Source: Chloroflexota bacterium (GTDB lineage Bacteria; Chloroflexota; Anaerolineae; Anaerolineales; Anaerolineaceae). From it: 52,984 nucleotides of DNA. The stretch lies in contig JAMCRR010000002.1 of assembly GCA_023381565.1 (NCBI GenBank), positions 1-52,984 of the forward strand. The letters are read 5' to 3'. This document shows positions 6,388 to 52,984 of the stretch, piece after piece; within the stretch, counting starts at the first letter, position 1; every line of letters starts with the position of its first letter. The translations under genes were made by a program, and so were the position numbers. The notes under the pieces are model-generated. The model did no database searches and was not told where the DNA came from. It saw only the letters and a list, made by a program, of their open reading frames with translations.

Positions 6388-7086
6388 TCAAATACCCTGC
6401 TGTTGTATCCACCTTTTAAGTGCCGGGCGGTTGAGGAGTACAATTTTACCCCGACCGGTGAGTAGCCAGCCGGCTCTGCGCCAACGACCCAGGGTTTTAG
6501 CCACAGTTTGGCGCGTGAGGCTCGAACGGCCTGCCAGCTCTTCTTGCGAGATGGTTACGTACCCATTAGCGCTGGACTCGCGGTCCAATTGCAGCAAGAC
6601 GCGCGCCAGGCGCGCCTGCGCGTCTAAGAAAGCCAGGGCACTCTCACGCTCGCTGCTTAGATTGAGGCGTGCAGCAGTCGTTTCGAGCAAGCGCCGTGTA
6701 AAGGTTGGTTCTTGTTCAAGCGCATCCAGCAAAGCCTGGCGGGGGATGACGAGTATTTCACTCGCTTCTCGGGCGATTGCATCGGCTGAATGCGCCCGAC
6801 CGGTGATGACGCCCATTTCGCCGAAGCAATCTCCCGAACGCATTTCGTTGATTACCAGCTCGCGCCCTTCTGTGCTGGTCAGCACAATGGCGACCGACCC
6901 CGACCGGACGATGTACGCAGAGTCAGGTGGGTCGGACTGGAGGAAAATTACCTCGCCTTTGGGCACACGCTTCAGCCAACCAGCGTATGCCAGCCTCCTT
7001 ATAACCCGCTCATCCAAATCTCTGAAGAGAGGCGTGTTGTGTAGAAAACCGATGATATCAGAGGGCGGATCCTGAGGATCGTTCAC
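6388..7086 (-). CDS. Crp/Fnr-family transcription regulator
   Basis: A 232-residue two-domain regulator. The cyclic-nucleotide-binding barrel (about 15-130) contains SGDCFGEMGVITGRAHSADA, close to the phosphate-binding cassette. A C-terminal winged helix (about 165-225) includes ISQEELAGRSSLTRQTVAKT as helix-turn-helix. There are no N-terminal iron-sulfur cysteines, so an FNR-type oxygen sensor is unlikely. GTG 7086 overlaps the stop of the SpoIIE gene as GTGA, indicating translational coupling. It is the last gene of the signalling operon, which also encodes a nucleotide cyclase, so cAMP or cGMP is the plausible effector. Targets are unknown. The palindrome before the hydrogenase operon (49726) is a candidate. 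Confidence 0.93.
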   Translation of the reverse strand: MNDPQDPPSDIIGFLHNTPLFRDLDERVIRRLAYAGWLKRVPKGEVIFLQSDPPDSAYIVRSGSVAIVLTSTEGRELVINEMRSGDCFGEMGVITGRAHSADAIAREASEILVIPRQALLDALEQEPTFTRRLLETTAARLNLSSERESALAFLDAQARLARVLLQLDRESSANGYVTISQEELAGRSSLTRQTVAKTLGRWRRAGWLLTGRGKIVLLNRPALKRWIQQQGI

Positions 7087-8324
7087 ACTGGCACACTTTT
7101 GATTGCCAACAGGGTTACGTCATCTTGCGGTCCAGTCGGCCCCGTAAATGCCGCAATTCTTTCCCAGAGACGGTCACAGACGTGTTGGGCACTCGCTGCG
7201 TGTTCTTCACAAAGGGCGGATTGCAGGTGCTCTAGCCCATAATCCTGGTCCTGGGTGTCGACTGCTTCGGTCACGCCGTCGCTGTAAAGCAGCATAGTGC
7301 TGCCCGGGGAAATAGAAACCAGTTCTTCATCAAGGTGAGGGTTTTTGAATAATCCCAATGGCTGACCTATGTCCATTTGCAGATCAACCGGCTTGCTTTT
7401 GCAATCGAGCAGAACGGGGGGCAGGTGCCCGGCGCGTGCATAATGGAACTCTCCCCTGCGCGTGTTCAACACGCCGTAAAGAACGGTCACATACATCCCA
7501 ACGACATTCATATCGAGCAGATGCCGATTTACTGTGCGCAGCACAGTTAACGGCGAACCCGATCGCCGGGCTTCTGCTCGCACCAGGCTGTAAGAGAGCG
7601 ACATAAAAATGGACGCCGGGATGCCCTTCCCGGTCACATCGCCGATAACGATCCCCAGGCTGTCGCGATCCAGCTTGATAAAGTCATAAAAATCACCGCC
7701 TACCGCTTGCGCCGGATGCATGATGGTGCCAAATTCGTACCCGGCTAGATCCGGCAACCGGCGCGGCAAGATGCTCAGTTGAAGAGTGCGAGCCACAGCC
7801 AGCTCTCGCTCGAGCTTAGCCTTTTCAATCAGCTCATCCTGGGCTGCCTGTAGCTGCTCGTAAGCAAGTGTCAGCCTGCGGTTCCTTTCGCGTAAATCCA
7901 GAATGGTCTGGTTTTCAGATTCTTCCATGCGACCGCTCACCAGAGCGAGCAAATCGTAGGCCAGGGTTGGGTGGCGGTGGAGCAGCGCGTCGAAGTCGAG
8001 ACGGGTCATTTCTAACAACCGCACAGGCCCAAGAGCGCGCACGCTGGCTGTGTGGTGGCGGTCTTGCATGAACAGGCTCATTTCGCCCAGTATCGCCCCG
8101 CTATGCTGGATCCCCGGACACCACTCATCGGGTGTTCCCAATGATTTGATGATTTCAACCTGACCGTCCAGGAGGATATAGAAATGGTTGTCTACATGTC
8201 CTTCCTGGAAGAGGATAGTTTTATCCGGAAACTCGCAAGGTTGAAGGGTTGCAGCCAGATATTCGATCTCGTCGTAGGGGAGGGAATTAAACAGCTGTAC
8301 TTGCCGGATGAGCCTTTCGTTCAT
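7083..8324 (-). CDS. cNMP-binding SpoIIE-type PP2C phosphatase
   Basis: 413 residues. A cNMP-binding barrel (about 10-125, with GAILGEMSLFMQDRHHTASV) is followed by a coiled linker (about 135-175) and a SpoIIE/RsbU-type PP2C domain (about 185-410). Metal-binding aspartates lie in GGDFYDF, GIVIGDVTGKG, LLYSDGVTEAVD and GPQDDVTLLA. Such phosphatases usually dephosphorylate anti-sigma antagonists, and here binding of a cyclic nucleotide would gate activity. No partner antagonist or anti-sigma kinase gene lies nearby. The start overlaps the cyclase stop as ATGA. It acts in the cytoplasm; there is no membrane segment. Confidence 0.93.
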   Translation of the reverse strand: MNERLIRQVQLFNSLPYDEIEYLAATLQPCEFPDKTILFQEGHVDNHFYILLDGQVEIIKSLGTPDEWCPGIQHSGAILGEMSLFMQDRHHTASVRALGPVRLLEMTRLDFDALLHRHPTLAYDLLALVSGRMEESENQTILDLRERNRRLTLAYEQLQAAQDELIEKAKLERELAVARTLQLSILPRRLPDLAGYEFGTIMHPAQAVGGDFYDFIKLDRDSLGIVIGDVTGKGIPASIFMSLSYSLVRAEARRSGSPLTVLRTVNRHLLDMNVVGMYVTVLYGVLNTRRGEFHYARAGHLPPVLLDCKSKPVDLQMDIGQPLGLFKNPHLDEELVSISPGSTMLLYSDGVTEAVDTQDQDYGLEHLQSALCEEHAASAQHVCDRLWERIAAFTGPTGPQDDVTLLAIKSVPV

Positions 8325-41201: not shown

Positions 41202-41741
41202 TTACTGATTGCTTGAAGGATCGGCAATTTTCATAATTTCTGCAGCGATCTTTTCCACGGCGCGCTGCACCGACCTGGATAGTGAACTGCCAACCCCCAT
41301 CGCTTCAGGTTGGATGCAGAGCAAAGCCACCTGGCAGGAAAGCTCGGAAGCGAAATACCCACCATATAGATACGGTGGAAGGGTGTGAGTGGAAAAGCTG
41401 ACCCCCTGCGTCTCTGCCAATTCCAGCCAGCGGATTGAGCCGGACGGGAGGCCCATTTCTCCCACATCCACGATCAGGATGACGGTCGGCTGAAGGCGCC
41501 GCAGGACGCCAGTGAAATTCTCGGGAGCCGGACCGGCGAGAATTACCTGCAATCTTTCTGAAGTGGTGAGGCGCTCCTGGAGTAGGCGAACGACTTCGAC
41601 TCCGGCTGCATCGTCACCGCGAAGCTCCTGCCCCACCCCCAATATCGCCAACCGTCCCGCTGGCTCAGTCTTCTGAAGGCGTTTCCAGGTTGCGGCGAGC
41701 CGCTTTTGCCAGAAGGAACTCGATATCTTCGTCTCGACCAT
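41202..41741 (-). CDS. [NiFe]-hydrogenase maturation endopeptidase (HycI/HyaD type)
   Basis: 179 residues. It should cut the C-terminal tail of the hydrogenase large subunit after nickel insertion. The nickel-site elements are GVGQELRGDDAAG (35-47), VDVGEMG and SFSTHTLPPY. The start ATG 41741 lies inside the ferredoxin-subunit gene (overlap of 77 bases), without a clear ribosome site. As the last gene of the operon it matches the large subunit encoded upstream. In that subunit (43007-44191) only 31 residues follow the last nickel-binding Cys, to the end EYYR. Whether a tail is still removed is uncertain, because the usual cleavage motif (DPCxxCxxH/R) ends with Arg there. Confidence 0.88.
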   Translation of the reverse strand: MVETKISSSFWQKRLAATWKRLQKTEPAGRLAILGVGQELRGDDAAGVEVVRLLQERLTTSERLQVILAGPAPENFTGVLRRLQPTVILIVDVGEMGLPSGSIRWLELAETQGVSFSTHTLPPYLYGGYFASELSCQVALLCIQPEAMGVGSSLSRSVQRAVEKIAAEIMKIADPSSNQ

Positions 41742-42090
41742 AGTAGATCGTGAAGGGATCTTTCTTTCCCGAGGCCAGCTCCCACTTCTCGTTGGACAGG
41801 CTCAGGCATTTGAAGCGGCAGTTCTGCACGCACTGCGCGCAGAAAGTACAGCGGTCCACATGGTAGCGGATCACGAAACGCTTGGCGGCTTTATCGATGG
41901 TGATCAGCTCGAGGGCTTCGGAAGGGCATTCTTTTACGCACAGCGCACAGCCCACGCACTTCGCCGCGTCGAAAAACAGCTCACCGCGCAGATTCTCTGG
42001 CGCCGGCCGGCGCTCGAAAGGATATCTTTCAGTAGCCGGGCGTTTAAACATGGATTGAAACACGTCACCAAACATAGCGCCGATTTTCAT
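41665..42090 (-). CDS. Hydrogenase 4Fe-4S subunit (NuoI/HycF/MbhN-like)
   Basis: 141 residues. It has two ferredoxin motifs: CVGCALCVKECP and CTFCAQCVQNC. They hold two 4Fe-4S clusters that pass electrons between the soluble partner and the NuoB-like subunit. The N-terminal helix MKIGAMFGDVFQSMFKRPA anchors it against the membrane subunits. The C-terminal part (PFTIYYGRDEDIEFLLAKA) is normal for the family. The start ATG 42090 overlaps the NuoH-like stop as ATGA, which decides against an upstream start. It is followed by the protease gene with a 77-base overlap. Confidence 0.9.
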   Translation of the reverse strand: MKIGAMFGDVFQSMFKRPATERYPFERRPAPENLRGELFFDAAKCVGCALCVKECPSEALELITIDKAAKRFVIRYHVDRCTFCAQCVQNCRFKCLSLSNEKWELASGKKDPFTIYYGRDEDIEFLLAKAARRNLETPSED

Positions 42091-43010
42091 ATACCCATCC
42101 CTTGCAGAACCACCAATACCAACAGCTGGAGCAGCGCCAGCAGAGCGCCCACCCGCCACCACAGTCCTACGACCTGGTCGATGCGCAGCCTGGCGAAAAG
42201 CGATTGAAGGCCGGCCACCACCAGGAGCAGCCCTCCAGTCTTAAGCAGGAATTCCAGCGGGTTGCTCAGGCCGCCCAGGTAAAACGCTGCCACCAGCGTC
42301 AGGCCGATGACCAGCTCGGCATCTTTGCCGATGCGGAAGAGAGCCAGACCGCGCCCGCTGTACTCGGTGAGTGCCCCAGAAACGATCTCCGTCTCAGCCT
42401 CTGGGGCGTCGAATGGCGGCAGCTCGAGCTTGCCCATTAAGCCGATGATGGCGACGACAAATCCGATAGGCTGGGTCAATATCAGCCAGTGGTTGTGCGC
42501 ATAGCCTGCAATTTCGCTGATCTGCCAGGTTCCCGCGACGATCGCCGGACCCAGGAGCGCAAGAAGAAATGGCGCCTCGTAGGAGAAGAGCTGCGTCAGC
42601 GTGCGGGTGGCGCCAATGATAGAAAACCGGTCAGCTGTGTTCGCCCCGGCCAGGCCGATACACAGTGTCAACAGGCTGAGCAGGTAAACCGTCACGATCA
42701 GGTCGCCGCGGAAGCTAAAAGAGGGGGAGAACCCGGCCATGGGGACATAGAGGGCAGCAGTGAGGGCGGCAGCCAGGGCGACTACCGGGAAAGCCAGAAA
42801 CATGCTCCGGTTAACCCCCGCAGGTACGACCTCTTCTTTTGCCAGTAGTTTAACTACATCGGCCAGGGGTTGGAACCAGCGTGGACCGATGCGGTTTTGC
42901 ATTCGGGCAACCAGCTTACGGTCGGTCCATTCATACACCAACCCGCTCGCCAGGACAAAGATGCCTCCGGGAAAGACCAGAAAGGATAGGAGTGGAAATA
43001 ACTCGTTCAT
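42087..43010 (-). CDS. Hydrogenase membrane subunit (NuoH/HycD/MbhM-like)
   Basis: 307 residues with about eight membrane helices. Conserved NuoH pieces are YEWTDRKLVARMQNRIGPRW, PLADVVKLLAKEE, and the acidic loop LELPPFDAPEAETEIVSGAL. The loop ends in TEYSGRGLALFRIGKDAE. This subunit links the iron-sulfur arm to the proton path. The ATG at 43010 overlaps the large-subunit stop (ATGA). It is part of an unbroken minus-strand operon. Confidence 0.93.
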   Translation of the reverse strand: MNELFPLLSFLVFPGGIFVLASGLVYEWTDRKLVARMQNRIGPRWFQPLADVVKLLAKEEVVPAGVNRSMFLAFPVVALAAALTAALYVPMAGFSPSFSFRGDLIVTVYLLSLLTLCIGLAGANTADRFSIIGATRTLTQLFSYEAPFLLALLGPAIVAGTWQISEIAGYAHNHWLILTQPIGFVVAIIGLMGKLELPPFDAPEAETEIVSGALTEYSGRGLALFRIGKDAELVIGLTLVAAFYLGGLSNPLEFLLKTGGLLLVVAGLQSLFARLRIDQVVGLWWRVGALLALLQLLVLVVLQGMGI

Positions 43011-44191
43011 CGGTAATATTCGATCCCATACTGCCGTAAATCTTCCCAGGTCCACAATTTTGACTGTCTGTCATGCGGGAGGATGGACACGGACCGGTCG
43101 CTGCACGAAAAACACGGGTCGATCCCCACCAAAATCATAGGCATATCGGCCAGCTTGTGCCCGGGAGCGGTTGCCGATACCGAAGCCCAGTTGCTCAAGC
43201 TGGGTGTGCGTATCTTGATGCGCTCAGGCTGATCGGTGCCGTTGCTCTTGATAAAATAAAACAACTCCCCGCGCGGGGCTTCTACCCGGCTGATTGTCTC
43301 TCCTTCGGGAATACGGCGCGGCATGCGCACTTCGATTTCTCCAGGGGGAAAATTATCTAAAATCACCCGGATGACGCGGTAGCTTTCGAAAAGCTCGTTG
43401 ACGTGCACCACAAAGCGTGCTTCGAGATCACCTGCGCTTGCCGTCACAATCTGGACGGGGAATTCGGTATAGGCGGCATAGGGCGAGTCGATACGCAGGT
43501 CGCGCTGGACCCCTGAGGCGCGAGCGGTAGGTCCCAGGGTTCCCAAAGCTTCGGCCTGGTCGGCCGACATCGTGCCGACGCCGCGTGTCCGGCGTAGAAA
43601 AGTCTCCTCGGCGGTCACGATGTTGTAATAATGGTGGGTACGTTCCTCCAGGAAATCCATGCCGCGGCGGATGGCGTCTGCTTGTGCGGCATCCACGTTA
43701 AACTTGACCCCGCCTAACACATTCGCTGAATAATTTACCCGGTTGCCGCTCAGTCTTTCCAGAATGTCCATCACGGTCTCGCGGTCACGCCAGCTATACA
43801 TGAACAGGGTGTCAAACCCGGCTTCGTGAGCGGCCACCCCCAGCCAGAGCAGGTGGCTGTGAACACGCTCCAGCTCAGCAACCAGCTCGCGGATGGCCTG
43901 CGCCCGGGGAGGTACAGTTATACCGGCCAACTTCTCCACGCCCAACGCGTAAGCGGTGGCGTGGATGTGCGAGCAAATGCCACAGACTCTTTCGAGCAGA
44001 TACAGGTCTTGGACGTAATTGCGCTCTTCCGCAGCTTTTTCGATGCCCCGGTGGACATACCCCAGGCGGATTGCCACCGAAGTGACAATCTCACCATCGA
44101 CGGTGAATTCAAAGTGCCCAGGCTCTTTCAGGGCAGGATGCTGAGGCCCGATCGGGACGATAAATTTCTGCGGTTTGGGGTTTTGGATCAT
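43007..44191 (-). CDS. Group 4 [NiFe]-hydrogenase large subunit
   Basis: 394 residues. Both nickel-binding motifs are present: L1 ERVCGICSHIH (Cys70, Cys73) and L2 DPCFSCSDR (Cys360, Cys363). NuoD of complex I lacks these cysteines, so this is a true hydrogenase catalytic subunit. The rest (NRVNYSANVLGGVKFN, APRGELFYFIKSNGTDQPER) fits the HycE/MbhL/EchE lineage. The protein lacks the NuoC-like N-terminal part, which is encoded separately upstream. Start ATG 44191 overlaps the NuoC-like stop (ATGA). Reaction: 2H+ + 2e- to H2, or the reverse, on the inner face of the membrane. Confidence 0.95.
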   Translation of the reverse strand: MIQNPKPQKFIVPIGPQHPALKEPGHFEFTVDGEIVTSVAIRLGYVHRGIEKAAEERNYVQDLYLLERVCGICSHIHATAYALGVEKLAGITVPPRAQAIRELVAELERVHSHLLWLGVAAHEAGFDTLFMYSWRDRETVMDILERLSGNRVNYSANVLGGVKFNVDAAQADAIRRGMDFLEERTHHYYNIVTAEETFLRRTRGVGTMSADQAEALGTLGPTARASGVQRDLRIDSPYAAYTEFPVQIVTASAGDLEARFVVHVNELFESYRVIRVILDNFPPGEIEVRMPRRIPEGETISRVEAPRGELFYFIKSNGTDQPERIKIRTPSLSNWASVSATAPGHKLADMPMILVGIDPCFSCSDRSVSILPHDRQSKLWTWEDLRQYGIEYYR

Positions 44192-44751
44192 TGGTGCGAG
44201 CCTCCCTGTTCTCCTGCAGCGCTGCCCGCATCTGGTGCATGAAATTCTTTGCGTAATGGGTAAACCCCGGATGGCCAATCGTCAGGCAGCAGCAGGTGAT
44301 CGGAGTTGGGTGTTTCGGTTACTTCGATGCCTAACATTTCGATCAGCTCACGCTCGAACACGGTAGCAGTTGGGATTACGCTGCAGATGCTGACTACGGC
44401 TGCCTGGGTGCGGGGCAGGCGTACGCGCAGGGTCAACACGGCCGCCCCGTGGCAGAAATGATAAAGAACCTCAAACCCACCCATGGGAACGGTACCGGCA
44501 TGCTCGGGCACTCCATCGAGACGCTCCCACTGCTTCTCTTCTGGGGTGGGTTGTCCCGCGCCGGGCACGTCGAGGCCGGTAATTGCAGACAGATATCCCC
44601 AATGCGCCTCTGTGAGAGCTCTCACCGCCGGAAGCAGGTCGGTAGGTCTCACCACCACATCGAGCCTGCCCTGCTCAGGAGTTTGGGTGACTACCGTCCA
44701 GGGCGCAACCACATTACTGCCTTGAGCAAGAGCTGTTTCAGTATCCATCAT
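44188..44751 (-). CDS. NuoC/HycE-N-like hydrogenase subunit
   Basis: 187 residues. The conserved NuoC-type segments are AHWGYLSAITGLD, ICSVIPTATVFERELIEML, and LLPDDWPSGVYPLRKEF. It contacts the large subunit and stabilises the arm. ATG 44751 has AAGGGG six bases upstream and follows the NuoB-like stop by two bases. No cofactor motif is expected or seen. The long loop with TPEEKQWERLDGV is not typical of NuoC and may be lineage-specific. Confidence 0.9.
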   Translation of the reverse strand: MMDTETALAQGSNVVAPWTVVTQTPEQGRLDVVVRPTDLLPAVRALTEAHWGYLSAITGLDVPGAGQPTPEEKQWERLDGVPEHAGTVPMGGFEVLYHFCHGAAVLTLRVRLPRTQAAVVSICSVIPTATVFERELIEMLGIEVTETPNSDHLLLPDDWPSGVYPLRKEFHAPDAGSAAGEQGGSHQ

Positions 44752-44753
44752 GG

Positions 44754-45227
44754 TTACCCCTTCTGGCTTTCTGGCTTGAGGCTTTGGAGAAGCTGCACAA
44801 CGCCGTAAATGATCGCCTCAGGCCGCGGAGGGCATCCCGGCACGTACATATTAACCGGAATGACCTGGTCGATGCCGCCTTCGACATTATAGCAACCGCG
44901 AAATGCTCCCCCTGAAATAGCGCAAGAGCCAACTGCAACCACAAACTTCGGATCGGGCATCTGCTCGTATATGCGAACCAGGCGTTCGCGTGCTTGCCTG
45001 GTGACCGGGCCGGTGCAGATCATCACATCTGCGTGGCGAGGGCTGCCTTGCAGTTTGATGCCGAAACGCTCCAGATCGTAGCGAGGCGTGATCGTGGCCA
45101 GAATTTCGATGTCACAGCCGTTGCAGGAGCCGCTGTTGAAGTGAATGGCCCAGGGGGAGTTGATGCGCGCCCAGCGGCGGATCTCGTCGACCGCTTCCTC
45201 CCAGGGATGAGTTAATTTCATATCCAT
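44754..45227 (-). CDS. Hydrogenase small subunit (NuoB/MbhJ/EchC-like)
   Basis: 157 residues. It should hold the proximal 4Fe-4S cluster with Cys35 and Cys38 (SGSCNGCDIE), Cys102 (GSCAISGG) and Cys132 (VPGCPPRP). The core NuoB folds are present: HADVMICTGPVT, PDPKFVVAVGSCA. Complex I NuoB has a CC pair, but this protein has CxxC, as in group 4 hydrogenases. ATG 45227 has AAGGT upstream. It forms the electron-transfer interface with the large subunit. Confidence 0.93.
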   Translation of the reverse strand: MDMKLTHPWEEAVDEIRRWARINSPWAIHFNSGSCNGCDIEILATITPRYDLERFGIKLQGSPRHADVMICTGPVTRQARERLVRIYEQMPDPKFVVAVGSCAISGGAFRGCYNVEGGIDQVIPVNMYVPGCPPRPEAIIYGVVQLLQSLKPESQKG

Positions 45228-45240
45228 AAAGTCCGTACCT

Positions 45241-45552
45241 TTAACCTAAAATCAGCGCCAGAAGAGCCAGGATCAACCCCCCGAGATACGCCCCCGTTAT
45301 TAGGGTCAAGCCGCCGCTGCTGAGCACCAGGATCCCCAGATGAAGGATGGCAAAAAAGAGCGCAATAACGAAGAATGGGCGGTATCCAGGTGCAGCGAAG
45401 CTGGTTGGAGCTTCTTCGCCGCTGCCGTAAAGGCTGGATTTCATTGGGGAGGGTTTCTCGGGTCCGGCAAGCCCCACCCCGATGCGGGTAATGATGAGAA
45501 CCAGGGGGATATATACCAGAAGAGCGACCGGAGGCGAAAGCAGGATTTCCAT
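45241..45552 (-). CDS. Small membrane subunit, distantly NuoA-like
   Basis: 103 residues with three hydrophobic helices. The middle, SSLYGSGEEAPTSFAAPGYR followed by PFFVIALFFAILHLGILVLS, aligns with the YxCGE and membrane part of NuoA, but the acidic FDxE motif is replaced by HLG. In this operon position it most probably packs against the NuoH-like subunit. The ATG at 45552 is chosen for AAGGA nine bases upstream; a GTG at 45558 is possible. Family membership is weak and rests on helix pattern and context. Confidence 0.7.
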   Translation of the reverse strand: MEILLSPPVALLVYIPLVLIITRIGVGLAGPEKPSPMKSSLYGSGEEAPTSFAAPGYRPFFVIALFFAILHLGILVLSSGGLTLITGAYLGGLILALLALILG

Positions 45553-45570
45553 AATCACTATCCTTGAATT

Positions 45571-47076
45571 CTATCTTACCACCAGAGTCATTAATACCGC
45601 GCCTGCAGGACCCGTAATCCATCCCGCAAGGCTGGGCCAGATACCCAGGACGACTGATCCAAGCGCCAGCAGAAGGAGAGGGACATTCATCAAGAATGGC
45701 ATCGGCTTGCCCTGTTGAACCGCCTGAGAAGGCTCCTGTCGGTAGAGCGTATTCACCAGAGGGGCATAATATGCGAGCGAGAGCACACTGTTCAGTGCGG
45801 CAAAGATCACCAGGGCGATCACCCAGGTGTTTTCAGTGCGAAAGCCGGCGACAAAGATCTGCCACTTGGACATAAATCCCGAAAGGGGCGGGAGCCCCCC
45901 TAACCCCAATAAAGCGATGCTCAAGGTGAAGGCTGCCACCGGATAGCGCCGCGCAGCGCCAGCCAGGTCGGAGATCATGAGGGGGCAGTACTGCTGCCGG
46001 GAGATATACAACGTATAGAGTAGGGCGCCGGAGGCCAGAAAGGCCAGCCCTTTAAGCATGCCATGATTCAGCAGGTGGAAAAAGCCGCCGGTAAAGCCGT
46101 CTTCCACATGGAAAGCAAACCCGATTCCCAGGCCGAGCAGCATATAGCCCACGTGGCTCAAGCTGGAAAAAGCCAGCATGCGTTTCACTTGCGTCTGACG
46201 TAGTGCCAGCAAGTTGCCGACCAGCATATTGAGGGCGCCAATCCCGAGCAGCAAGTAACCCCACGATGCAGTGGTCGGCGCCAGTGCGCCGATAGCTCGC
46301 AGCAAAGCGATTAAACCGGCTTCGATGACCACTCCTGAGAGCATGGCGCTGATGCCGCTGGGCGCTTGAGAGTGCGCATCCGGGAGCCAGGTATGGAGCG
46401 GTACCAGAGCCGCTTTGACGCCAAAGCCGGTGATAAACAGCGCCCCGGCAGCCAGCAGGGCGGGGGAACCCGGTAAGGAGACTGCCGCGCTGCGGATGAC
46501 CGCCAGATTCACCGAACCGGTCTGCAGGATGACCAGGGAGATCCCTAACAGAATCAGAACCGACCCGGCGGCGCTCTGCACGAGATATTTCATTCCAGCT
46601 TCGAGGGCGCCAGGCTGGTTACGGTGGAAGGCTACCAGCATGTAGGAGGCGATAGCCATAGTTTCAAACCAGACCCACAGGTTGAATAGATCAGCGGCGC
46701 AGCCTAAACCTATCATCGCTCCGGTCATGGTATTCAATAAGGCGAAATATTTTTCCTCGCCCTCCTCGCCGGTCAGGTACGGCCCAGAAAATACTGCCAC
46801 CAGGGTTGCCAGCATCAGGGCAACCCCCGCCAGCAGCATCCCCAGCCCGTCGAAGCGCAGGTCAACAGCGCCGAAGGTCAGGGAGAATCCTCCAGACTGC
46901 TGGCCTGCCCGAGCCAGTGCAATGAAAGGCCACCAGGCAGCCAGCAGGGACAGGACGCTGACCCACTGAGCCAGTTTCAACCGGGGTTGTTTGCGCGTGA
47001 GCCGTCCGGCCAGGTAGATGATCGGAGATGAGCCCAGGGGAAGGGCGATCAACCAAAGAAATGCATTCGAGACCAT
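45571..47076 (-). CDS. Antiporter-like subunit (MrpD/NuoN/HyfB-like)
   Basis: 501 residues with about 14 membrane helices. The conserved core has WVWFETMAIASYMLVAFHRN (acidic residue in helix 5), HTWLPDAHSQAPSGISAMLS, and the lysine-containing RMLAFSSLSHVGYMLLG. These residues form the ion path of complex I and Mrp antiporters. The subunit would couple hydrogenase electron flow to H+ or Na+ transport. ATG 47076 follows the stop of the next antiporter-like gene by one base. It ends 18 bases before the NuoA-like gene. Confidence 0.92.
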   Translation of the reverse strand: MVSNAFLWLIALPLGSSPIIYLAGRLTRKQPRLKLAQWVSVLSLLAAWWPFIALARAGQQSGGFSLTFGAVDLRFDGLGMLLAGVALMLATLVAVFSGPYLTGEEGEEKYFALLNTMTGAMIGLGCAADLFNLWVWFETMAIASYMLVAFHRNQPGALEAGMKYLVQSAAGSVLILLGISLVILQTGSVNLAVIRSAAVSLPGSPALLAAGALFITGFGVKAALVPLHTWLPDAHSQAPSGISAMLSGVVIEAGLIALLRAIGALAPTTASWGYLLLGIGALNMLVGNLLALRQTQVKRMLAFSSLSHVGYMLLGLGIGFAFHVEDGFTGGFFHLLNHGMLKGLAFLASGALLYTLYISRQQYCPLMISDLAGAARRYPVAAFTLSIALLGLGGLPPLSGFMSKWQIFVAGFRTENTWVIALVIFAALNSVLSLAYYAPLVNTLYRQEPSQAVQQGKPMPFLMNVPLLLLALGSVVLGIWPSLAGWITGPAGAVLMTLVVR

Positions 47077-47077
47077 T

Positions 47078-48826
47078 TCACACCCCCCAGGCCAGGATGA
47101 TCAAGATGATCGCAAGCCCCGCCAGTATGCCCAAGACATTCCAGCTCAAGAGCCCAGTCTGTGTTGTTCGCAACGCTTCCCCGGTATTTTTTACGGCCCT
47201 GGTTATCGAATTGTTGATGGTTTCGAAGCCGAAATTCTGAATCGCCGCGTTTTGCACTCCTTTGAATGTGGTAACCAGGCCGGTAAGGTGCTGGCGCTGC
47301 CACCAAACAGATAAGCCCAATGCAATAACCAGCAAAGCTACCAGGGTGGACGGCTCGCTGACGACCTGTTCGGCGATATGAAGGGTGGAACTGGCTTCAA
47401 TTTTGTGGAAAGGCAGCGTGGCTGCCAGCATCTGGCTGAAGGGCCCGGCGGCAAGCCAGGAGATCAAAGCTCCGGCTGCTAAAGGCACGAGGGCGATGCG
47501 CATAGCCGGTTGGGCGTCGTGGGCGTGTAGGGTGCTGCGAGGTTTGCCGTAAAATACCAGCCAGACCCCGCGGAATGTATATAACGCTGTCAATCCGGCG
47601 CCGAGAACCATGATGAGGTATAGCCACAACGGACCGCCGGTCAGCCCCGATTCCAATACCAATTCTTTGCTCCAGAAGCCGTTCAGGATGGGCAACCCTG
47701 CAAGAGCCAGCCCACCGATAATAAAGGTTGCTCTCACCAGCGGCATCTTGGGTCCCAGTCCGCCCATCTGGCGCATATCTCGCGTGCCAACAGCATGAAT
47801 GACAGAGCCCGCCGCCAGGAAGAGTAGGGCTTTGAAGATGGCGTGGCTGAGCAGATGGAACTGGCTGGCAAAAACCCCACCTGCGCCTATGGCGTAAACC
47901 ATATATCCGAGCTGGCTGATAGTTGAGTAAGCCAGGAGACGCTTCAAGTCGTATGCTACCAGGGCCATCATGGCTGCCAGGATGGCGGAGGTCGCTCCGA
48001 CGATCATGACGGCCAATTTCCAGCCTGGGACGGGCGCAAACGCCGGATAGAAGCGGGCTAACAGGTAAACCCCTGCATTTACCATGGTCGCAGCATGGAT
48101 CAGCGCGCTGACCGGAGTGGGGGCTTCCATTGCGTCCGGAAGCCAGGTGTGGAAAGGAAATTGGGCGGATTTAGCCGCGGCTGCAGCCAAAAACCCGAAA
48201 GCCAAAAAGCTCAACAACGCCGGGGGTAGGGTAGTGCTCTTTTCCAGGACCGCGCTGATTTCGTATGTTCCTAAAGTAGTGTAAGCCAATAAGGCGCCGG
48301 CCAGCAGGCCGATTCCGCCTACCTGAGTGATAATCAGCGCCTTGATGCCTCCCGCCACGGCCTTCGGATCGTCGTTATGGAAGGAGATGAGCGCATAGGA
48401 ACATAAGGCGGTGATTTCCCAAAAGACGAAGACGAAAAGCAGGCTGCCGCTTAACACCAACCCGGCCATACCCCCGATGAAGAACAGGACCAGCGCGTAA
48501 TACCTTCCCAGTTGGGCTTCGCCGCGCATATAGTCGATTGAGAAGATGACTGCCAGGCTGCCAATCACAGTAGCGATAGCCGCCAGAAACACCCCCAGGC
48601 CATCTGGAATGAGTGTAAAGTCGCCAAAAACCCCTCCCAACGGCACGGAGATGATCGCTTTACTGGAAGTGTCAAAGAGCAGCGCCAGGGAAGCTATGCC
48701 CGCCGTCACGGAGAAGAAAACGGCAGCGGAGACCTGCAAGCGAGGATGGTTATTGCCAACCCACCAAACCAGCAAGGCTCCCAGCCAGGGCAGTCCGATG
48801 GTCAGCAGGACAAAAACAGGAACCAA
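47078..48826 (-). CDS. Antiporter-like subunit (NuoL/MrpA-like)
   Basis: 582 residues with about 14-16 helices. Key pieces are FVFVFWEITALCSYALISFH, SAQFPFHTWLPDAMEAPTPV, SALIHAATMVNAGVYLLARF and RLLAYSTISQLGYMVYAIG. The C-terminal region (about 430-582) has an amphipathic helix of the lateral-arm type, followed by a final membrane segment. TTG 48826 is the start, because GGAGGT precedes it by five bases. Together with the MrpD-like subunit it gives the complex two ion-translocating modules. Confidence 0.92.
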   Translation of the reverse strand: MVPVFVLLTIGLPWLGALLVWWVGNNHPRLQVSAAVFFSVTAGIASLALLFDTSSKAIISVPLGGVFGDFTLIPDGLGVFLAAIATVIGSLAVIFSIDYMRGEAQLGRYYALVLFFIGGMAGLVLSGSLLFVFVFWEITALCSYALISFHNDDPKAVAGGIKALIITQVGGIGLLAGALLAYTTLGTYEISAVLEKSTTLPPALLSFLAFGFLAAAAAKSAQFPFHTWLPDAMEAPTPVSALIHAATMVNAGVYLLARFYPAFAPVPGWKLAVMIVGATSAILAAMMALVAYDLKRLLAYSTISQLGYMVYAIGAGGVFASQFHLLSHAIFKALLFLAAGSVIHAVGTRDMRQMGGLGPKMPLVRATFIIGGLALAGLPILNGFWSKELVLESGLTGGPLWLYLIMVLGAGLTALYTFRGVWLVFYGKPRSTLHAHDAQPAMRIALVPLAAGALISWLAAGPFSQMLAATLPFHKIEASSTLHIAEQVVSEPSTLVALLVIALGLSVWWQRQHLTGLVTTFKGVQNAAIQNFGFETINNSITRAVKNTGEALRTTQTGLLSWNVLGILAGLAIILIILAWGV

Positions 48827-48829
48827 GGA

Positions 48830-49141
48830 TTACCTCCGCAGGGTAGAAAGGCTGCGCAGATCCAGTGTGCCAAACTTGCGCCGCACCTGGACGGCCAGCG
48901 CCAGGCCAATCACAGCCACGATCGTATCAGCGACGATAACCGTTATCGCCAGACTGGCCCCCAAGACGACCTGCCCGCGCAGGTAGCCTGCCAGGATCAG
49001 GCCCAGAATGGCAGATTTCACCAGGATCTGCAGTGCGACCACGACTTTAATCAGGTTGCGGGTTGCCAGCAAGCCGTAGAAACCCACCCCCAATAATCCA
49101 AGGACGCCCACCGCAACCACATTTGCCGCTGAAAAGGTCAT
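48830..49141 (-). CDS. NuoK/MrpC-like small membrane subunit
   Basis: 103 residues with three helices. LGVGFYGLLATRNLIKVVVA and ASLAITVIVADTIVAVIGLA match the MnhC/NuoK pattern, although the Glu in the second NuoK helix is not obvious. The ATG at 49141 overlaps the stop of the preceding gene (ATGA), which decides the start against a longer upstream frame. Confidence 0.85.
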   Translation of the reverse strand: MTFSAANVVAVGVLGLLGVGFYGLLATRNLIKVVVALQILVKSAILGLILAGYLRGQVVLGASLAITVIVADTIVAVIGLALAVQVRRKFGTLDLRSLSTLRR

Positions 49142-49656
49142 TTTTGCGTCTCCTCGGATGAACCGCCGGCAGTCTCTGTGTCCGAAAGCAGCCCCAAAAC
49201 CCCCAAGACACCGGCGAAAACTAACACGATCTGCGCCACCACATCCAGGCTGCGCTGTTCCCAAAATGCACGTGTGAAATCGGCTGCCGATGGAAGGGAG
49301 AAGGTGACGTTCAACTGCAGGATGGATAGCAACCCCGGCATGCCCATCCAGCCCAGGAGAAGAATAGAGAGAGCCACCAGACCTATAGAAAGCGGGCGCG
49401 GGACCAATGGTTTGAGCTTTATGGGTTCCTCTCCGGCAACGTTGATCGCAAAGACGAACAGCACCGTCACCAGGCCGGCGCCGACGCTCAGCTCGATCAC
49501 AGCGACCTCAGGCGCTCCCATCACGAAAATGGCCAGGGCGACCAGTGCGCTGGTGCCTGCCAGCCAGAGCGCGGAAACCAGAAGCCGGTTTGCGCGCATC
49601 GACTGAAGCGCGCAAAAGATGGCACCCACGATCACCACAACCATTACCCCCACCAT
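49138..49656 (-). CDS. DUF4040/MrpB-like membrane subunit
   Basis: 172 residues with about five helices. The first part, LVSALWLAGTSALVALAIFV and APEVAVIELSVGAGLVTVLF, matches the DUF4040/MbhD type of Mrp and hydrogenase complexes. The second part (LDVVAQIVLVFAGVLGVLGL) resembles MbhE or MrpB, so it looks like a fusion of two small Mrp modules. It is the first gene of the hydrogenase operon. ATG 49656 follows a perfect AAGGAGGT. No MrpE, MrpF or MrpG gene is present. The upstream region holds a promoter with a CRP-type site. Confidence 0.85.
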   Translation of the reverse strand: MVGVMVVVIVGAIFCALQSMRANRLLVSALWLAGTSALVALAIFVMGAPEVAVIELSVGAGLVTVLFVFAINVAGEEPIKLKPLVPRPLSIGLVALSILLLGWMGMPGLLSILQLNVTFSLPSAADFTRAFWEQRSLDVVAQIVLVFAGVLGVLGLLSDTETAGGSSEETQK

Positions 49657-49697
49657 AGCCCTACCTCCTTCTTAGATCGATTCCTCAAACCACAATA

Positions 49698-49726
49698 GGT
49701 ATACCGCGGTTGTTACGCTTTGTCAT
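49698..49726 (-). promoter_or_regulatory. Promoter of the hydrogenase operon
   Basis: Minus strand: ATGACA (49726-49721), a 17-base spacer and TATACC (49703-49698). This predicts transcription from about 49691, 35 bases before the ATG. Both hexamers are imperfect, which fits an activator-dependent promoter. Confidence 0.6.
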
Positions 49727-49741
49727 GTGAAAAATATCACT
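49726..49741. promoter_or_regulatory. CRP/FNR-type palindromic operator
   Basis: TGTGAAAAATATCACT matches TGTGA-N6-TCACA in nine of ten conserved positions. It abuts the -35 hexamer and its centre is about 42 bases upstream of the predicted start, the position of class II CRP activation. Confidence 0.65.
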
Positions 49742-49867
49742 ATTATTCTGTTATTTTTCCCTTGACAGGGTTATTTGTATCACTTTTCCTCATCAGGAAC
49801 TCAGCTCCCTGAGGATTGTCTTGAGCTTGGGCCACGTAAATTCCAAAAGGCTTGGAAGCGATTGATA

Positions 49868-49896
49868 TTGACAATAGAACAGATGTTCGATATAAT
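49868..49896 (+). promoter_or_regulatory. Consensus sigma-70 promoter of the polymerase cassette
   Basis: TTGACA (49868-49873), exactly 17 bases, TATAAT (49891-49896). Both hexamers are perfect, which predicts a strong promoter unless repressed. The ATG of the first gene is 54 bases downstream of the -10. Confidence 0.9.
49877..49888. promoter_or_regulatory. LexA-type SOS box inside the promoter spacer
   Basis: GAACAGATGTTC is a perfect GAAC-N4-GTTC palindrome, the core of the Gram-positive LexA (DinR) operator. It lies between the -35 and -10 hexamers, so bound repressor would block polymerase. This strongly suggests DNA-damage control of the genes downstream. Confidence 0.85.
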
Positions 49897-49950
49897 AAAA
49901 GTGACTGGATAAGCAAGCGATAATAACCAGCCAGAGGAGATGCATAAAAC

Positions 49951-50502
49951 ATGATGGGGACGACGCCTGCGCTTCCCGAGCTTCCTTCCGGGAAAATCGT
50001 GCTGGTTTTGGCGGCTCATGGCGCTCAAGGCATCCTGCTGGAACTGGCGGCCGGCCTGGCGCCTCGTGGCCCGCTGCGTGTTCTGGATGGAGGCAACCGT
50101 TTCAATGCCTATCACCTGGCGCGCCTCCTGCGCCGCCAGACGCCGGATATGACCGCGGCATTGAACCGCATCAGCCTGGCGCGGGCTTTTACCTGCTACC
50201 AGGTGGAGACGCTGGTTTCGGCGTCCAGCGCCGACCCACCCATGCCCACCCTGATCCTGGATTTGCTGGCGACCTTTTACGACGAGAGCGTGTCGCTGGC
50301 AGAGCGCCGCTGGCTGCTGGAGCGCTGCGTGCAGCACCTGCGCCGCCTGGGCGACCAGGCGCCGGTCGCCGTGAGCGCTCAGCCGGCCCTTCCCGCCCAG
50401 GTTGAGCGAGCCAGCCTGCTGAGGATCTTACAGGAGGCGTCCGACCAGGTGTGGGAGATGGAAGCGCCCACCCTTCCGGCTCCGCCGCCCAGATTATTTT
50501 GA
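49951..50502 (+). CDS. Degenerate RecA/Rad51-like protein of the polymerase cassette
   Basis: 183 residues. The fold pattern of a RecA/Rad51 core is readable: an opening strand GKIVLVLAAHGAQGILLEL, then RVLDGGNRFNAYHLARLL, then ISLARAFTCYQVETLV (compare the YARAY segment of RadA), then the Walker-B-like strand TLILDLLATFYDE. The P-loop lacks its Lys and Thr (AAHGAQGI), so ATP binding is probably lost. ATG 49951 follows GAGGAG by about eleven bases. It is the first gene after the SOS-type promoter, followed by a small helical protein and a family B polymerase. A recruiting or filament-binding role like that of ImuA/SulA-type RecA relatives is a reasonable inference. An alternative is a diverged KaiC-like protein. 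Confidence 0.7.
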   Translation: MMGTTPALPELPSGKIVLVLAAHGAQGILLELAAGLAPRGPLRVLDGGNRFNAYHLARLLRRQTPDMTAALNRISLARAFTCYQVETLVSASSADPPMPTLILDLLATFYDESVSLAERRWLLERCVQHLRRLGDQAPVAVSAQPALPAQVERASLLRILQEASDQVWEMEAPTLPAPPPRLF

Positions 50503-50528
50503 TTACTTTCTTTAATGAGGAGATCGAT

Positions 50529-50822
50529 ATGGGACGTACCTTACCGGCAATTGCCCAGGTTTTTCTGCACGAGCAGGAGTCTTTTGCCCGCTTCCGCCGC
50601 GCCCTGCGACGCAGCGACCAGATGGTCCTGGACGACCTGTTTGCAGAGGCGCAGCAGCACCTGGCGGCTGCGGCCTATGCCGCCCACGCCCTGCCGTTCG
50701 AGGTCTTTCTGCTTTCCATGCTGCTGGAGGAGCACAAGCAAGTGATGCATTTGCGCCACCGGATCGAGGAGCTGGAGCGCCTGGCTGCCCCGGCGGAACA
50801 GGCAGGCGAACGGCATGCATGA
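50529..50822 (+). CDS. Small helical protein of the polymerase cassette
   Basis: 97 residues of unknown family. It is nearly all helix: ARFRRALRRSDQMVLDDLFA, EAQQHLAAAAYAAHALPFEV, and MLLEEHKQVMHLRHRIEELE, with a coiled-coil-like end. The ATG at 50529 follows GAGGAG. It ends inside the polymerase gene region (an ATG in the polymerase frame lies at 50815, another at 50860), so the three genes are likely translated together. A bridging subunit between the RecA-like protein and the polymerase is plausible but unproven. There are no cysteines or catalytic motifs. Confidence 0.7.
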   Translation: MGRTLPAIAQVFLHEQESFARFRRALRRSDQMVLDDLFAEAQQHLAAAAYAAHALPFEVFLLSMLLEEHKQVMHLRHRIEELERLAAPAEQAGERHA

Positions 50823-50859
50823 TCGCGCTCTGCATGACGGCGCCCTGCAGGAGAGAACC

Positions 50860-52984
50860 ATGCGCGCGCAAGAAGGCTGGCTGCTCGACGTATACGCCGA
50901 CCCGCAGGATGGGCTGGTGGTCTGGTTCCTGGGTGATGACGGCGCTCGCCTGCGCCTGCGGCGCTCTTTCCCGGTTACCTTCTACGCGGCCGGACCCGCC
51001 GTTGAGCTGCGCGGCCTGTGGCGCTACCTGGAAAGCCAGCCCGTTTCGGTGCGGCTCGAGCGCACCGAGCGGCGCGACCTGTTCGTGGGGAAAGATATCC
51101 CGGTGCTGGCGGCCGAGGTGGCCCAACCCGCGGCCCAGCCCGAGCTGTTCCGCCAGGCTTCCAGGCGCTTCCCCGACCTGACCTATTACGACGCCGACCT
51201 GGTTCTGGCGCTGCGCTACGCCGCACAGACCGGGGCTTTTCCGCTGGCTCGCTGCCGCGTCACTACCGACGGCGGGACGCGGCTGGAGCAGATCCAGGTC
51301 CTCGACACTCCCTGGGTTTTAGATCCGGCGCCGGCGCCTCTGCGCATCCTGGCCATCGACCCAGACGTCAACCCCTCCCACGCCGCGCCGCGCCGGCTCG
51401 CGCTCCACTACCAGGGGAATACCGTCGAGCTGTCCATGCAGCCGGAGCGCGCCTTGCTGATCAACCTGAGAGCCATCCTGCACGAATACGACCCCGACCT
51501 GCTGCTGACCACCTGGGGCGATACCTGGCTCCTGCCCGAGCTGGTGCGCCTGGCGCGCAAATGGCGCTTCGCCCTGCCTTTCAACCGGGACGCCGGGCGC
51601 GGCCTGGCGCGGCGCGCCGAGAAGTCCTATTTTTCCTACGGTCAGGTCATCCACCGCGGCCAGCAGATCCACCTTTTCGGCCGCTGGCACATCGACCGCT
51701 GCAATGCCATGTTGTGGGGCGACTACGGCCTGGACGGTGTGCTGGAGCTGGCGCGGGTCACCAGCCTGCCGGTGCAAACCTCAGCGCGTGTCTCGCCGGG
51801 CACCGGCATTTCCTCCATGCAAATCTTGACCGCCCTGCGCCAGGGGGTGCTGGTGCCCTGGCACAAGCAGCAGGCGGAGGACCCGCGGCGCGCCCGCGAC
51901 CTGCTGTACGCCGCCCAGGGTGGGTTGGTCTACCAGCCCCTGATCGGGCTGCACCGCGACGTGGCCGAGGTGGATTTCATCTCCATGTATCCCAGTGTGA
52001 TGGTCCATTTCAACATCTCCCCCGAGACGGTAGGGGCGCAGCGCGCCAATGCTCGGGAGATCCCCGAGCTGGGCCTGGCGATCGACGTCGATCACCCCGG
52101 GCTGGTGCCGCAAACGCTGGAGCCGCTGCTCAAAAAGCGCATCGCCTTGAAGGCGCAGATTGCCAGCTTGCCTCCCTGGGACCCGCGGCGCAGGCGCTAC
52201 AAAGTGTATGCTTCGGCTCACAAGTGGCTGCTGGTCACCTGCTTCGGCTACCTGGGGTACAAGAACGCCCGCTTCGGGCGGATCGAAGCGCACCAGGCCG
52301 TCACCGCTTACGGGCGCGAGATGCTGCTGCGGGCCAAGGAAGCCGCCGAAGCGCTGGGCTTTACCGTGCTGCACCTGTACGTGGACGGCATGTGGGTGAA
52401 GAAGCCAGGCGCCCGCCGCGTGGCTGACTTCCAGCCCCTGCTGGACCACATTGCCGAGGAGACCGGCCTGCCGATCTCGCTGGACGGCATTTACCGCTGG
52501 CTGGCGTTCCTGCCCTCGCGGCGCAACGAGCGCATCCCGGTGGCTAACCGCTATTTCGGCGCCTTCCAGGACGGCTCGCTGAAAATGCGCGGCATTGATG
52601 CCCGCCGCCAGGATACGCCGCCTTTTATCGCCAAAGCCCAGATAGATATTTTGGAGATGTTCGCCCGGGCGCAAGATGCCGACGAGCTGCCCGACATGCT
52701 TCCGGCGGCCGTTGCCCGGCTGCGAGGCGCCCTGGCAGAGCTGCGCCTCGGGCGCCTGGCTCTGGCAGACTGCCTGGTGACCCAGAAGCTGAGCCGCACA
52801 CTGGATGAGTACCGCGCGCCTTCGCCTGCGGCGCGGGCCGTGGCGCAGCTGCAGGAAGTAGGGAAGCGCCTGCGCCCGGGGCAGCGCGTGCGCTTTCTCT
52901 ACCTGCGCGGCGAGCCCGGTGTGCAGGCCTGGGACCTGCCCGATCCGCCGGCCACGGCCGCCCTCGACTATGTCCGCTACCTTC
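50860..52984 (+). CDS. Family B DNA polymerase (partial at the window end)
   Basis: At least 708 residues, cut by the window. Polymerase motif A is DFISMYPS with Asp372. Motif B is KWLLVTCFG (Lys455 to Gly463; K-x3-N-S-x-Y-G with Val-Thr and Phe). Motif C is LYVDGMWV with Asp509, where the usual DTDS has lost its first Asp. Asp372 and Asp509 can serve as the two metal ligands, so activity may remain. Upstream, ILAIDPDVN and LLLTTWGDTW stand where exonuclease motifs I and II would be, but the Exo I Glu is absent. ATG 50860 follows AGGAGAG; ATG 50815 is possible. The gene is GC-rich. As third gene of an SOS-type cassette it is probably a repair or translesion polymerase. Confidence 0.85.
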   Translation, partial: MRAQEGWLLDVYADPQDGLVVWFLGDDGARLRLRRSFPVTFYAAGPAVELRGLWRYLESQPVSVRLERTERRDLFVGKDIPVLAAEVAQPAAQPELFRQASRRFPDLTYYDADLVLALRYAAQTGAFPLARCRVTTDGGTRLEQIQVLDTPWVLDPAPAPLRILAIDPDVNPSHAAPRRLALHYQGNTVELSMQPERALLINLRAILHEYDPDLLLTTWGDTWLLPELVRLARKWRFALPFNRDAGRGLARRAEKSYFSYGQVIHRGQQIHLFGRWHIDRCNAMLWGDYGLDGVLELARVTSLPVQTSARVSPGTGISSMQILTALRQGVLVPWHKQQAEDPRRARDLLYAAQGGLVYQPLIGLHRDVAEVDFISMYPSVMVHFNISPETVGAQRANAREIPELGLAIDVDHPGLVPQTLEPLLKKRIALKAQIASLPPWDPRRRRYKVYASAHKWLLVTCFGYLGYKNARFGRIEAHQAVTAYGREMLLRAKEAAEALGFTVLHLYVDGMWVKKPGARRVADFQPLLDHIAEETGLPISLDGIYRWLAFLPSRRNERIPVANRYFGAFQDGSLKMRGIDARRQDTPPFIAKAQIDILEMFARAQDADELPDMLPAAVARLRGALAELRLGRLALADCLVTQKLSRTLDEYRAPSPAARAVAQLQEVGKRLRPGQRVRFLYLRGEPGVQAWDLPDPPATAALDYVRYL

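Follow-up and report, generated by a model that had tools for sequence, protein, structure and literature searches.

A bacterial operon of three genes, encoding an inactivated RadA homologue (iRadA), a small partner protein (PPB2) and a family B DNA polymerase (PolB2), has been described as the "PolB2 mutasome" (Timinskas et al., 2025; PMC11791011). According to that account, its marks are iRadA itself, a PPB2 with an MGRT arm and a PolB2 mostly with the first aspartate (Asp) substituted, and in bacteria the genes occur only in the order iRadA-PPB2-PolB2. Earlier, Makarova et al. (2014; PMC4104785) had reported the three linked genes in bacteria, some with lexA in the same predicted operon, as in Leptospirillum ferriphilum, and a 2026 survey of bacterial DNA polymerases cites their view (PMC12926913). 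In the literature consulted, bacterial PolB2 complexes have so far been characterised by computation only. Here we analyse a stretch of 52,984 nucleotides from a Chloroflexota bacterium of the Anaerolineaceae (GenBank assembly GCA_023381565.1, contig JAMCRR010000002.1), hereafter the window, which ends in a promoter followed by a three-gene cassette of this kind. Sequence comparison makes it very probable that these genes form a bacterial operon for PolB2 translesion synthesis and that the host LexA represses it directly. A preliminary description, made from the letters of the window alone, had raised the possibility that the cassette was new; this can no longer be upheld, as the operon, the inactive RadA, the small helical partner and the link to DNA damage are already in print (PMC4104785; PMC11791011). 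The system is thus known, and what is added here is sequence evidence pointing to LexA control across many relatives within a single bacterial class.

The cassette is preceded by a sigma-70-type promoter on the forward strand (49868-49896) that matches TTGACA-N17-TATAAT exactly (12/12 in a promoter scan covering positions 49000-52984 of the window), with TTGACA at 49868-49873, TATAAT at 49891-49896 and a spacer of 17 bases. It is the sole exact occurrence of TTGACA-N16/17/18-TATAAT on either strand of the window. Its spacer contains a putative LexA operator, GAACAGATGTTC (49877-49888, forward strand), an exact instance of GAAC-N4-GTTC, a LexA motif originally reported from Bacillus (PMC3323433). 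The preliminary description had reported this perfect promoter with the box in its spacer, and both the coordinates and the exact match are confirmed. It had also allowed that the host LexA might recognise some other motif; the same box, however, sits at the promoters of both LexA genes of the host, in exact form (C133:2967-2978 and C16:4979-4990) and at the same promoter position as in the cassette. By eye, the host recA promoter holds a one-mismatch box, TTGACTTTTAGAACGCTTGTGCTATAAT, in the same place. Beyond the host, the best 25 of 42 LexA-domain matches were checked for boxes, the host's two included, and 23 of these 25 lexA loci (23 PolB2 carriers) have an exact box just after TTGAC, 73-106 bp upstream of the DNA-binding domain; the other two are a locus with a one-mismatch box (G216) and a second, partial gene without a box (G387).

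The position of the box is more telling than its presence. The bare 12-base box occurs at 47 sites in the host genome vs 37 for a reversed control, and was for that reason rejected as evidence when taken alone. The composite TTGAC-N2-5-box, on the other hand, occurs at four sites vs none in the reversed control, namely the cassette promoter, both host lexA genes and one site on contig C162. When 20 other box regions of the host genome and locus L001 were read, promoter context was seen at the C162 site only. There (C162:3806-3826; G000; L102, L131) the same architecture, TTGACAATAGAACCAATGTTC then TATATTAT, stands before a short frame near the contig end. A box upstream of dinB (C76) was considered as an operator and rejected; it sits within the upstream frame, with no promoter around it. 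We suggest that in the undamaged cell LexA bound between the -35 and -10 elements of the cassette promoter would block RNA polymerase, and that upon DNA damage, following the standard SOS pathway, active RecA would promote self-cleavage of LexA and the strong promoter would fire. Inspected by eye, both host LexA proteins retain the elements of the LexA self-cleavage motif, an Ala-Gly site together with a Ser and a Lys.

The same three genes recur among relatives. A polymerase search of 400 genomes of the phylum gave 28 with a match: 24 clear PolB2 carriers, three with other B polymerases (G302, G193 and G032; 43-50 bits), which were excluded from the carriers, and one with a fragment only (G367). 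With five named Chloroflexota loci added, 28 operons were available beside the window (29 with it), a count that omits one locus at a contig end (L032) and those with the fragment or other polymerases (L033-L036). The named relatives are Anaerolineaceae and other Chloroflexota, and the nearest is L039, at 70% identity. iRadA was found in 28/28 relatives and PPB2 in 27/28, the order iRadA-PPB2-PolB2 being kept; in L031 PPB2 was not found by tblastn. The preliminary description had seen in the window three closely spaced genes, encoding a RecA/Rad51-like protein with a broken P-loop, a 97-residue helical protein and a family B polymerase, and had proposed looking for their conserved co-occurrence and order. 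Both points are borne out, the trio standing in the same order in 27 of the 28 relatives. A Y-family polymerase is present in 20/23 PolB2 carriers vs 14/20 non-carriers, which is no clear contrast.

The first gene (49951-50502, forward strand) encodes iRadA, a protein of 183 residues identified as an inactivated RadA/Rad51 homologue by Pfam, by profile and by predicted fold. Its Pfam Rad51 match is weak, at 23 bits above a cut-off of 22, and it has neither a GxxxxGK[TS] P-loop nor the N-terminal domain. A profile of 14 iRadA proteins matched archaeal RadA entries of the PDB with a best E of 8.7e-7, the match starting at profile position 33, that is, only downstream of the P-loop region; nine columns of the profile are invariant, including R78-A79-F80, D104 and D111. 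A predicted model of the window protein, built from six sequences (predicted local distance difference test score, pLDDT, 83.7), found RAD51 homolog 4 as its best PDB match in Foldseek (8faz_D; E 5.6e-9; template modelling score 0.75 by query length), with RadA likewise among the best matches. The RecA-like protein of the cassette belongs with RadA/Rad51, not with bacterial RecA. iRadA ends in LF in 21/29 operons and in QxxLF in 17/29, and these tails of the relatives resemble the clamp-binding tails of the PolB2 mutasome, some members of which carry a beta-clamp motif in iRadA or PolB2 (PMC11791011); the window protein ends in PPRLF, which may be a weak version of such a beta-clamp-like tail. 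The second gene (50529-50822, forward strand) encodes PPB2, the helical partner of 97 residues, which begins with MGRT (MGRTLPAIAQ), as do 24 of the 28 PPB2 homologues found. It matched no Pfam family at E values up to 1, and its predicted model, of modest quality (pLDDT 70.3; predicted template modelling score 0.31), has three helices.

The third gene (50860-52984, forward strand) encodes PolB2, with a 93-bit match to Pfam DNA_pol_B. The start at 50860 is favoured over an alternative at 50815 by an AGGAG in front of it and by the local alignments of the relatives, which begin at residues 5-22, mostly 13-22. Because the window is an entire contig of 52984 bases, the gene is cut by the contig end; 41 residues at its end in the window recur at 100% identity on contig C64 of the same assembly, where the frame closes some 77 residues later. 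Among NCBIfam models the protein scores 372 bits with the archaeal-type PRK05761.1-2 (cut-off 516, not reached) vs 58 bits with the best Pol II model, and on these scores an identity as Pol II was rejected. In an alignment with PDB entry 5mdn, LYVDG faces GDTDS, so that in DxD a Tyr takes the place of the first Asp and the second is kept; the motif A Asp is present. In the PolB2 mutasome the 3'-5' exonuclease is inactive; here the Exo I motif reads D-x-D vs D-x-E in 5mdn, and the other exonuclease motifs were judged by eye only. About 90 bases past the polymerase frame on C64 (L062; ~6627-7859, reverse strand) lies a radical SAM gene with a helix-hairpin-helix, whose product resembles TIGR03916 rSAM_link_UDG (272 bits, under the 343.5 cut-off). 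Among the operon loci such a gene was seen downstream in L039 only (61%), most other loci being covered for about 1.5 kb downstream. The COG1573-COG4277 uracil-DNA glycosylase pair is described as SOS-regulated in Bacteroidetes (PMC8565304).

The substituted Asp, together with a RadA homologue devoid of a P-loop, raises the question of whether the polymerase lacks catalytic activity, with the complex acting in the control of replication or recombination and not in lesion bypass; such roles were proposed by Makarova et al. (2014; PMC4104785). We hold this to be unlikely, because the Dpo2 of S. islandicus, in which the first DxD Asp is also replaced, is reported to be active and to be needed for damage-induced mutagenesis (PMC11791011), and in the window PolB2 the Asp of motif A and the second one of DxD are both present. 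By homology and with the published models as a guide, a working translesion complex would be assembled as follows: PolB2 would use a Rad51-like oligomerisation motif to dock iRadA, PPB2 would form a trimer and insert its MGRT arm close to the active site, and the whole would carry out error-prone primer extension across lesions, as archaeal Dpo2 is reported to do.

The upstream regions of the relatives bear on whether such a complex is under SOS control. Within 800 bp upstream of iRadA an exact box occurs in 22 of the 29 operons, while first-order Markov resampling (200 runs) gave a mean of 0.28 operons with a box and a maximum of 2, and in these loci the 121,668 bases that lie beyond 1 kb upstream hold 2 boxes. 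Promoter context is good at 15 of the 22 exact boxes (at least 5/6 of the -35 and at least 4/6 of the -10 bases). The arrangement of the window, in which iRadA directly follows a promoter that has the box between its -35 and -10, is repeated with an exact box in L024, L026 and L039, whose promoter has one hexamer mismatch, and with a one-mismatch box in L022 (spacer of 16 bases), L027 and L043; L030 is similar with a weaker -10. In the upstream scan, which the preliminary description had proposed, one-mismatch boxes in promoter-like context add five operons (L014, L022, L025, L027 and L043) to the 22; L029 and L040 have no convincing box.

Several observations weigh against the reading of the cassette as a LexA-repressed translesion operon. 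PolB2 is patchy in the phylum, with 24 clear carriers among 400 genomes, and its gene has one in-frame stop in L018, L019 and L031. The bare box is near background in the host genome. The exact box is missing in 7/29 operons, two of them the loci without any convincing box just named, and promoter context is weaker at the exact boxes of L010, L011, L012, L013, L015, L016 and L042. One might accordingly argue that the PolB2 mutasome is real but that the box is another regulator's site or a chance palindrome, the operon lying outside the SOS response; the near-background frequency, the two boxless loci and the seven exact boxes in weak promoter context would all fit. We judge this distinctly improbable given that the in-promoter position of the box is common to both host lexA genes and 23/25 lexA loci, and that boxes stand upstream of most relatives' operons. 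Direct repression of the operon by LexA remains the reading that we prefer.

In many of the relatives the LexA-type box lies before an extra gene of about 135 codons. This leader gene precedes iRadA in 19/28 relatives and is absent from the window and from nine relatives; in four loci (L022, L024, L026 and L030) only some 380-520 bases of upstream sequence are covered, so that the leader was judged there on part of its usual place. The leader match ends 87-247 bases before the projected iRadA start. The leader has a box upstream in all 19 cases. In 15 the box is exact and lies at a distance of 24-157 bases from the start of the match; in the other four (L010, L012, L014 and L025) it has one mismatch. 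A further box stands immediately in front of iRadA in L010, L011 and L012. The C-terminus of the leader protein is a LuxR-type helix-turn-helix (HTH) domain (GerE, 50-58 bits in five tested), and its tail reads W-D-[FM]-x-x-W in 11/11 aligned proteins. A profile search of the 400 genomes found a full-length leader (at least 94 bits) in 17 of the 24 PolB2 carriers vs 2 of the 376 others, 19 genomes in all; of these two others, one has the PolB2 fragment (G367) and one no PolB2 (G224). Nine of the 17 leader-positive carriers had supplied rows of the profile, and with up to ten candidates scored per genome absence is not proved by this search.

Six leader copies away from an intact PolB2 operon were read, and these too have boxes (four exact and two one-mismatch) 26-48 bases upstream, adjoining -35 elements that match at five or all six positions. 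In four of the six (G224, G005, G297 and G332; L136, L137, L138 and L139) the next gene encodes a TIR-like protein, an identity tested for the G224 protein only (Pfam TIR_2, 80.6 bits). In G224 and G005 the product of the gene after it resembles, by eye, a protein-isoaspartate methyltransferase. The HTH gene was rejected as a structural mutasome component because it also occurs at a distance from PolB2 and in front of TIR-like genes, which makes a regulatory or leader role likelier. Its distribution points to a probable role as leader or regulator in more than one SOS operon. In G104 the PolB2 operon (C5:60230) has neither box nor leader and an HTH gene stands apart (C2:114834) with a one-mismatch box; the leader might there control the operon in trans. 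On a tree of the 29 polymerases the HTH label must change five times, which leaves gain vs loss of the leader unsettled.

These patterns tentatively suggest, though we would put it at rather less than an even chance, a second SOS tier in Chloroflexota, in which a LexA-boxed LuxR-type HTH gene heads a PolB2 or TIR operon and tunes or delays its expression after damage; the window lineage would have dropped the leader, placing LexA directly on iRadA, and in G104 the leader stands elsewhere in the genome while the PolB2 operon lacks a box of its own. The main text of PMC11791011 makes no mention of LuxR, HTH, GerE or helix-turn-helix. Among the matches listed in a literature search on the leader gene there was no paper on it, and this SOS-boxed gene of the relatives is possibly new. 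Its presence at both PolB2 and TIR-like operons suggests that damage-induced mutagenesis may be connected with a protein of possible defence or cell-fate function.

The surroundings and the wider occurrence of the cassette can be noted briefly. Upstream of it in the window, divergent genes on the reverse strand (41202-49656) form what resembles, by eye, a membrane-bound hydrogenase or complex I-like cluster. A search of viral contigs by exact matches of short peptides, which can reveal no more than close relatives, gave no PolB2 cassette. A plasmid search returned 121 records, with haloarchaeal ones forming the largest groups; identity stayed below 60% in every record, and in none did the match span 80% of the query. 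Two Leptospira phages (L103, KF114879.1; L104, KF114878.1) carry the cassette, with an iRadA (53-55 bits), a short PPB2-like gene (22 and 10.6 bits), PolB2 and a gene beginning MCGRYS, by eye SRAP-like.

The ImuA-ImuB-DnaE2 cassette is an SOS operon that combines a RecA-related protein with error-prone polymerase, its polymerase components being of the Y and C families and its ImuA akin to bacterial RecA. In the cassette studied here the one polymerase is of family B and the two sets are not homologous; kinship was rejected on these different protein families, and the resemblance is by analogy only. That the cassette is a family B counterpart of ImuA-ImuB-DnaE2, independently assembled out of a protein derived from bacterial RecA and a polymerase like Pol II, would explain why one SOS-boxed operon holds both a RecA-superfamily protein and a polymerase of error-prone type, but is scarcely credible when the RecA-like protein matches Rad51/RadA models instead of bacterial RecA, the polymerase prefers the archaeal-type B model so clearly (372 bits, below the cut-off of 516, vs 58 for the best Pol II) and the same three-gene set has been published as an archaeal transfer (PMC11791011). 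Of the SOS-controlled family B mutasome with a RecA/Rad51-type partner inferred in the preliminary description, the core is therefore retained (trio in 27/28 relatives, exact box in 22/29 operons and one-mismatch box in five more, the same box at host lexA), and its newness and the ImuA kinship are given up.

Among other comparable systems, E. coli Pol II is likewise a family B polymerase induced in the SOS response, but it is a single subunit with active proofreading (PMC11791011) and by model scores belongs to another B group. E. coli Pol V (UmuD'2C-RecA) is an SOS-controlled multi-protein translesion polymerase with a RecA-family partner, an architectural parallel drawn in print (PMC11791011), but has a Y-family polymerase, another small subunit and an active RecA. 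The Dpo2 operon of Sulfolobus has three homologous genes, is damage-inducible and has an error-prone role (PMC7390963; PMC8764526); it differs in being archaeal and in its link to Orc1/Cdc6-type damage regulators instead of LexA (PMC11791011). With the PolB2 mutasome of bacteria the cassette shares gene order, inactive RadA, a small helical protein with MGRT, the DxD substitution and the link to DNA damage. The difference lies in the nature of that link, which in the published accounts is a neighbouring lexA and here is a LexA-type box mapped in the promoter and traced across relatives. An operon described as an archaeal transfer thus appears, from its promoter sequences, to be wired into the bacterial SOS circuit, and with a candidate operator placed in the PolB2 promoter as it is at lexA, the published guess of damage control becomes a direct and cheap test.

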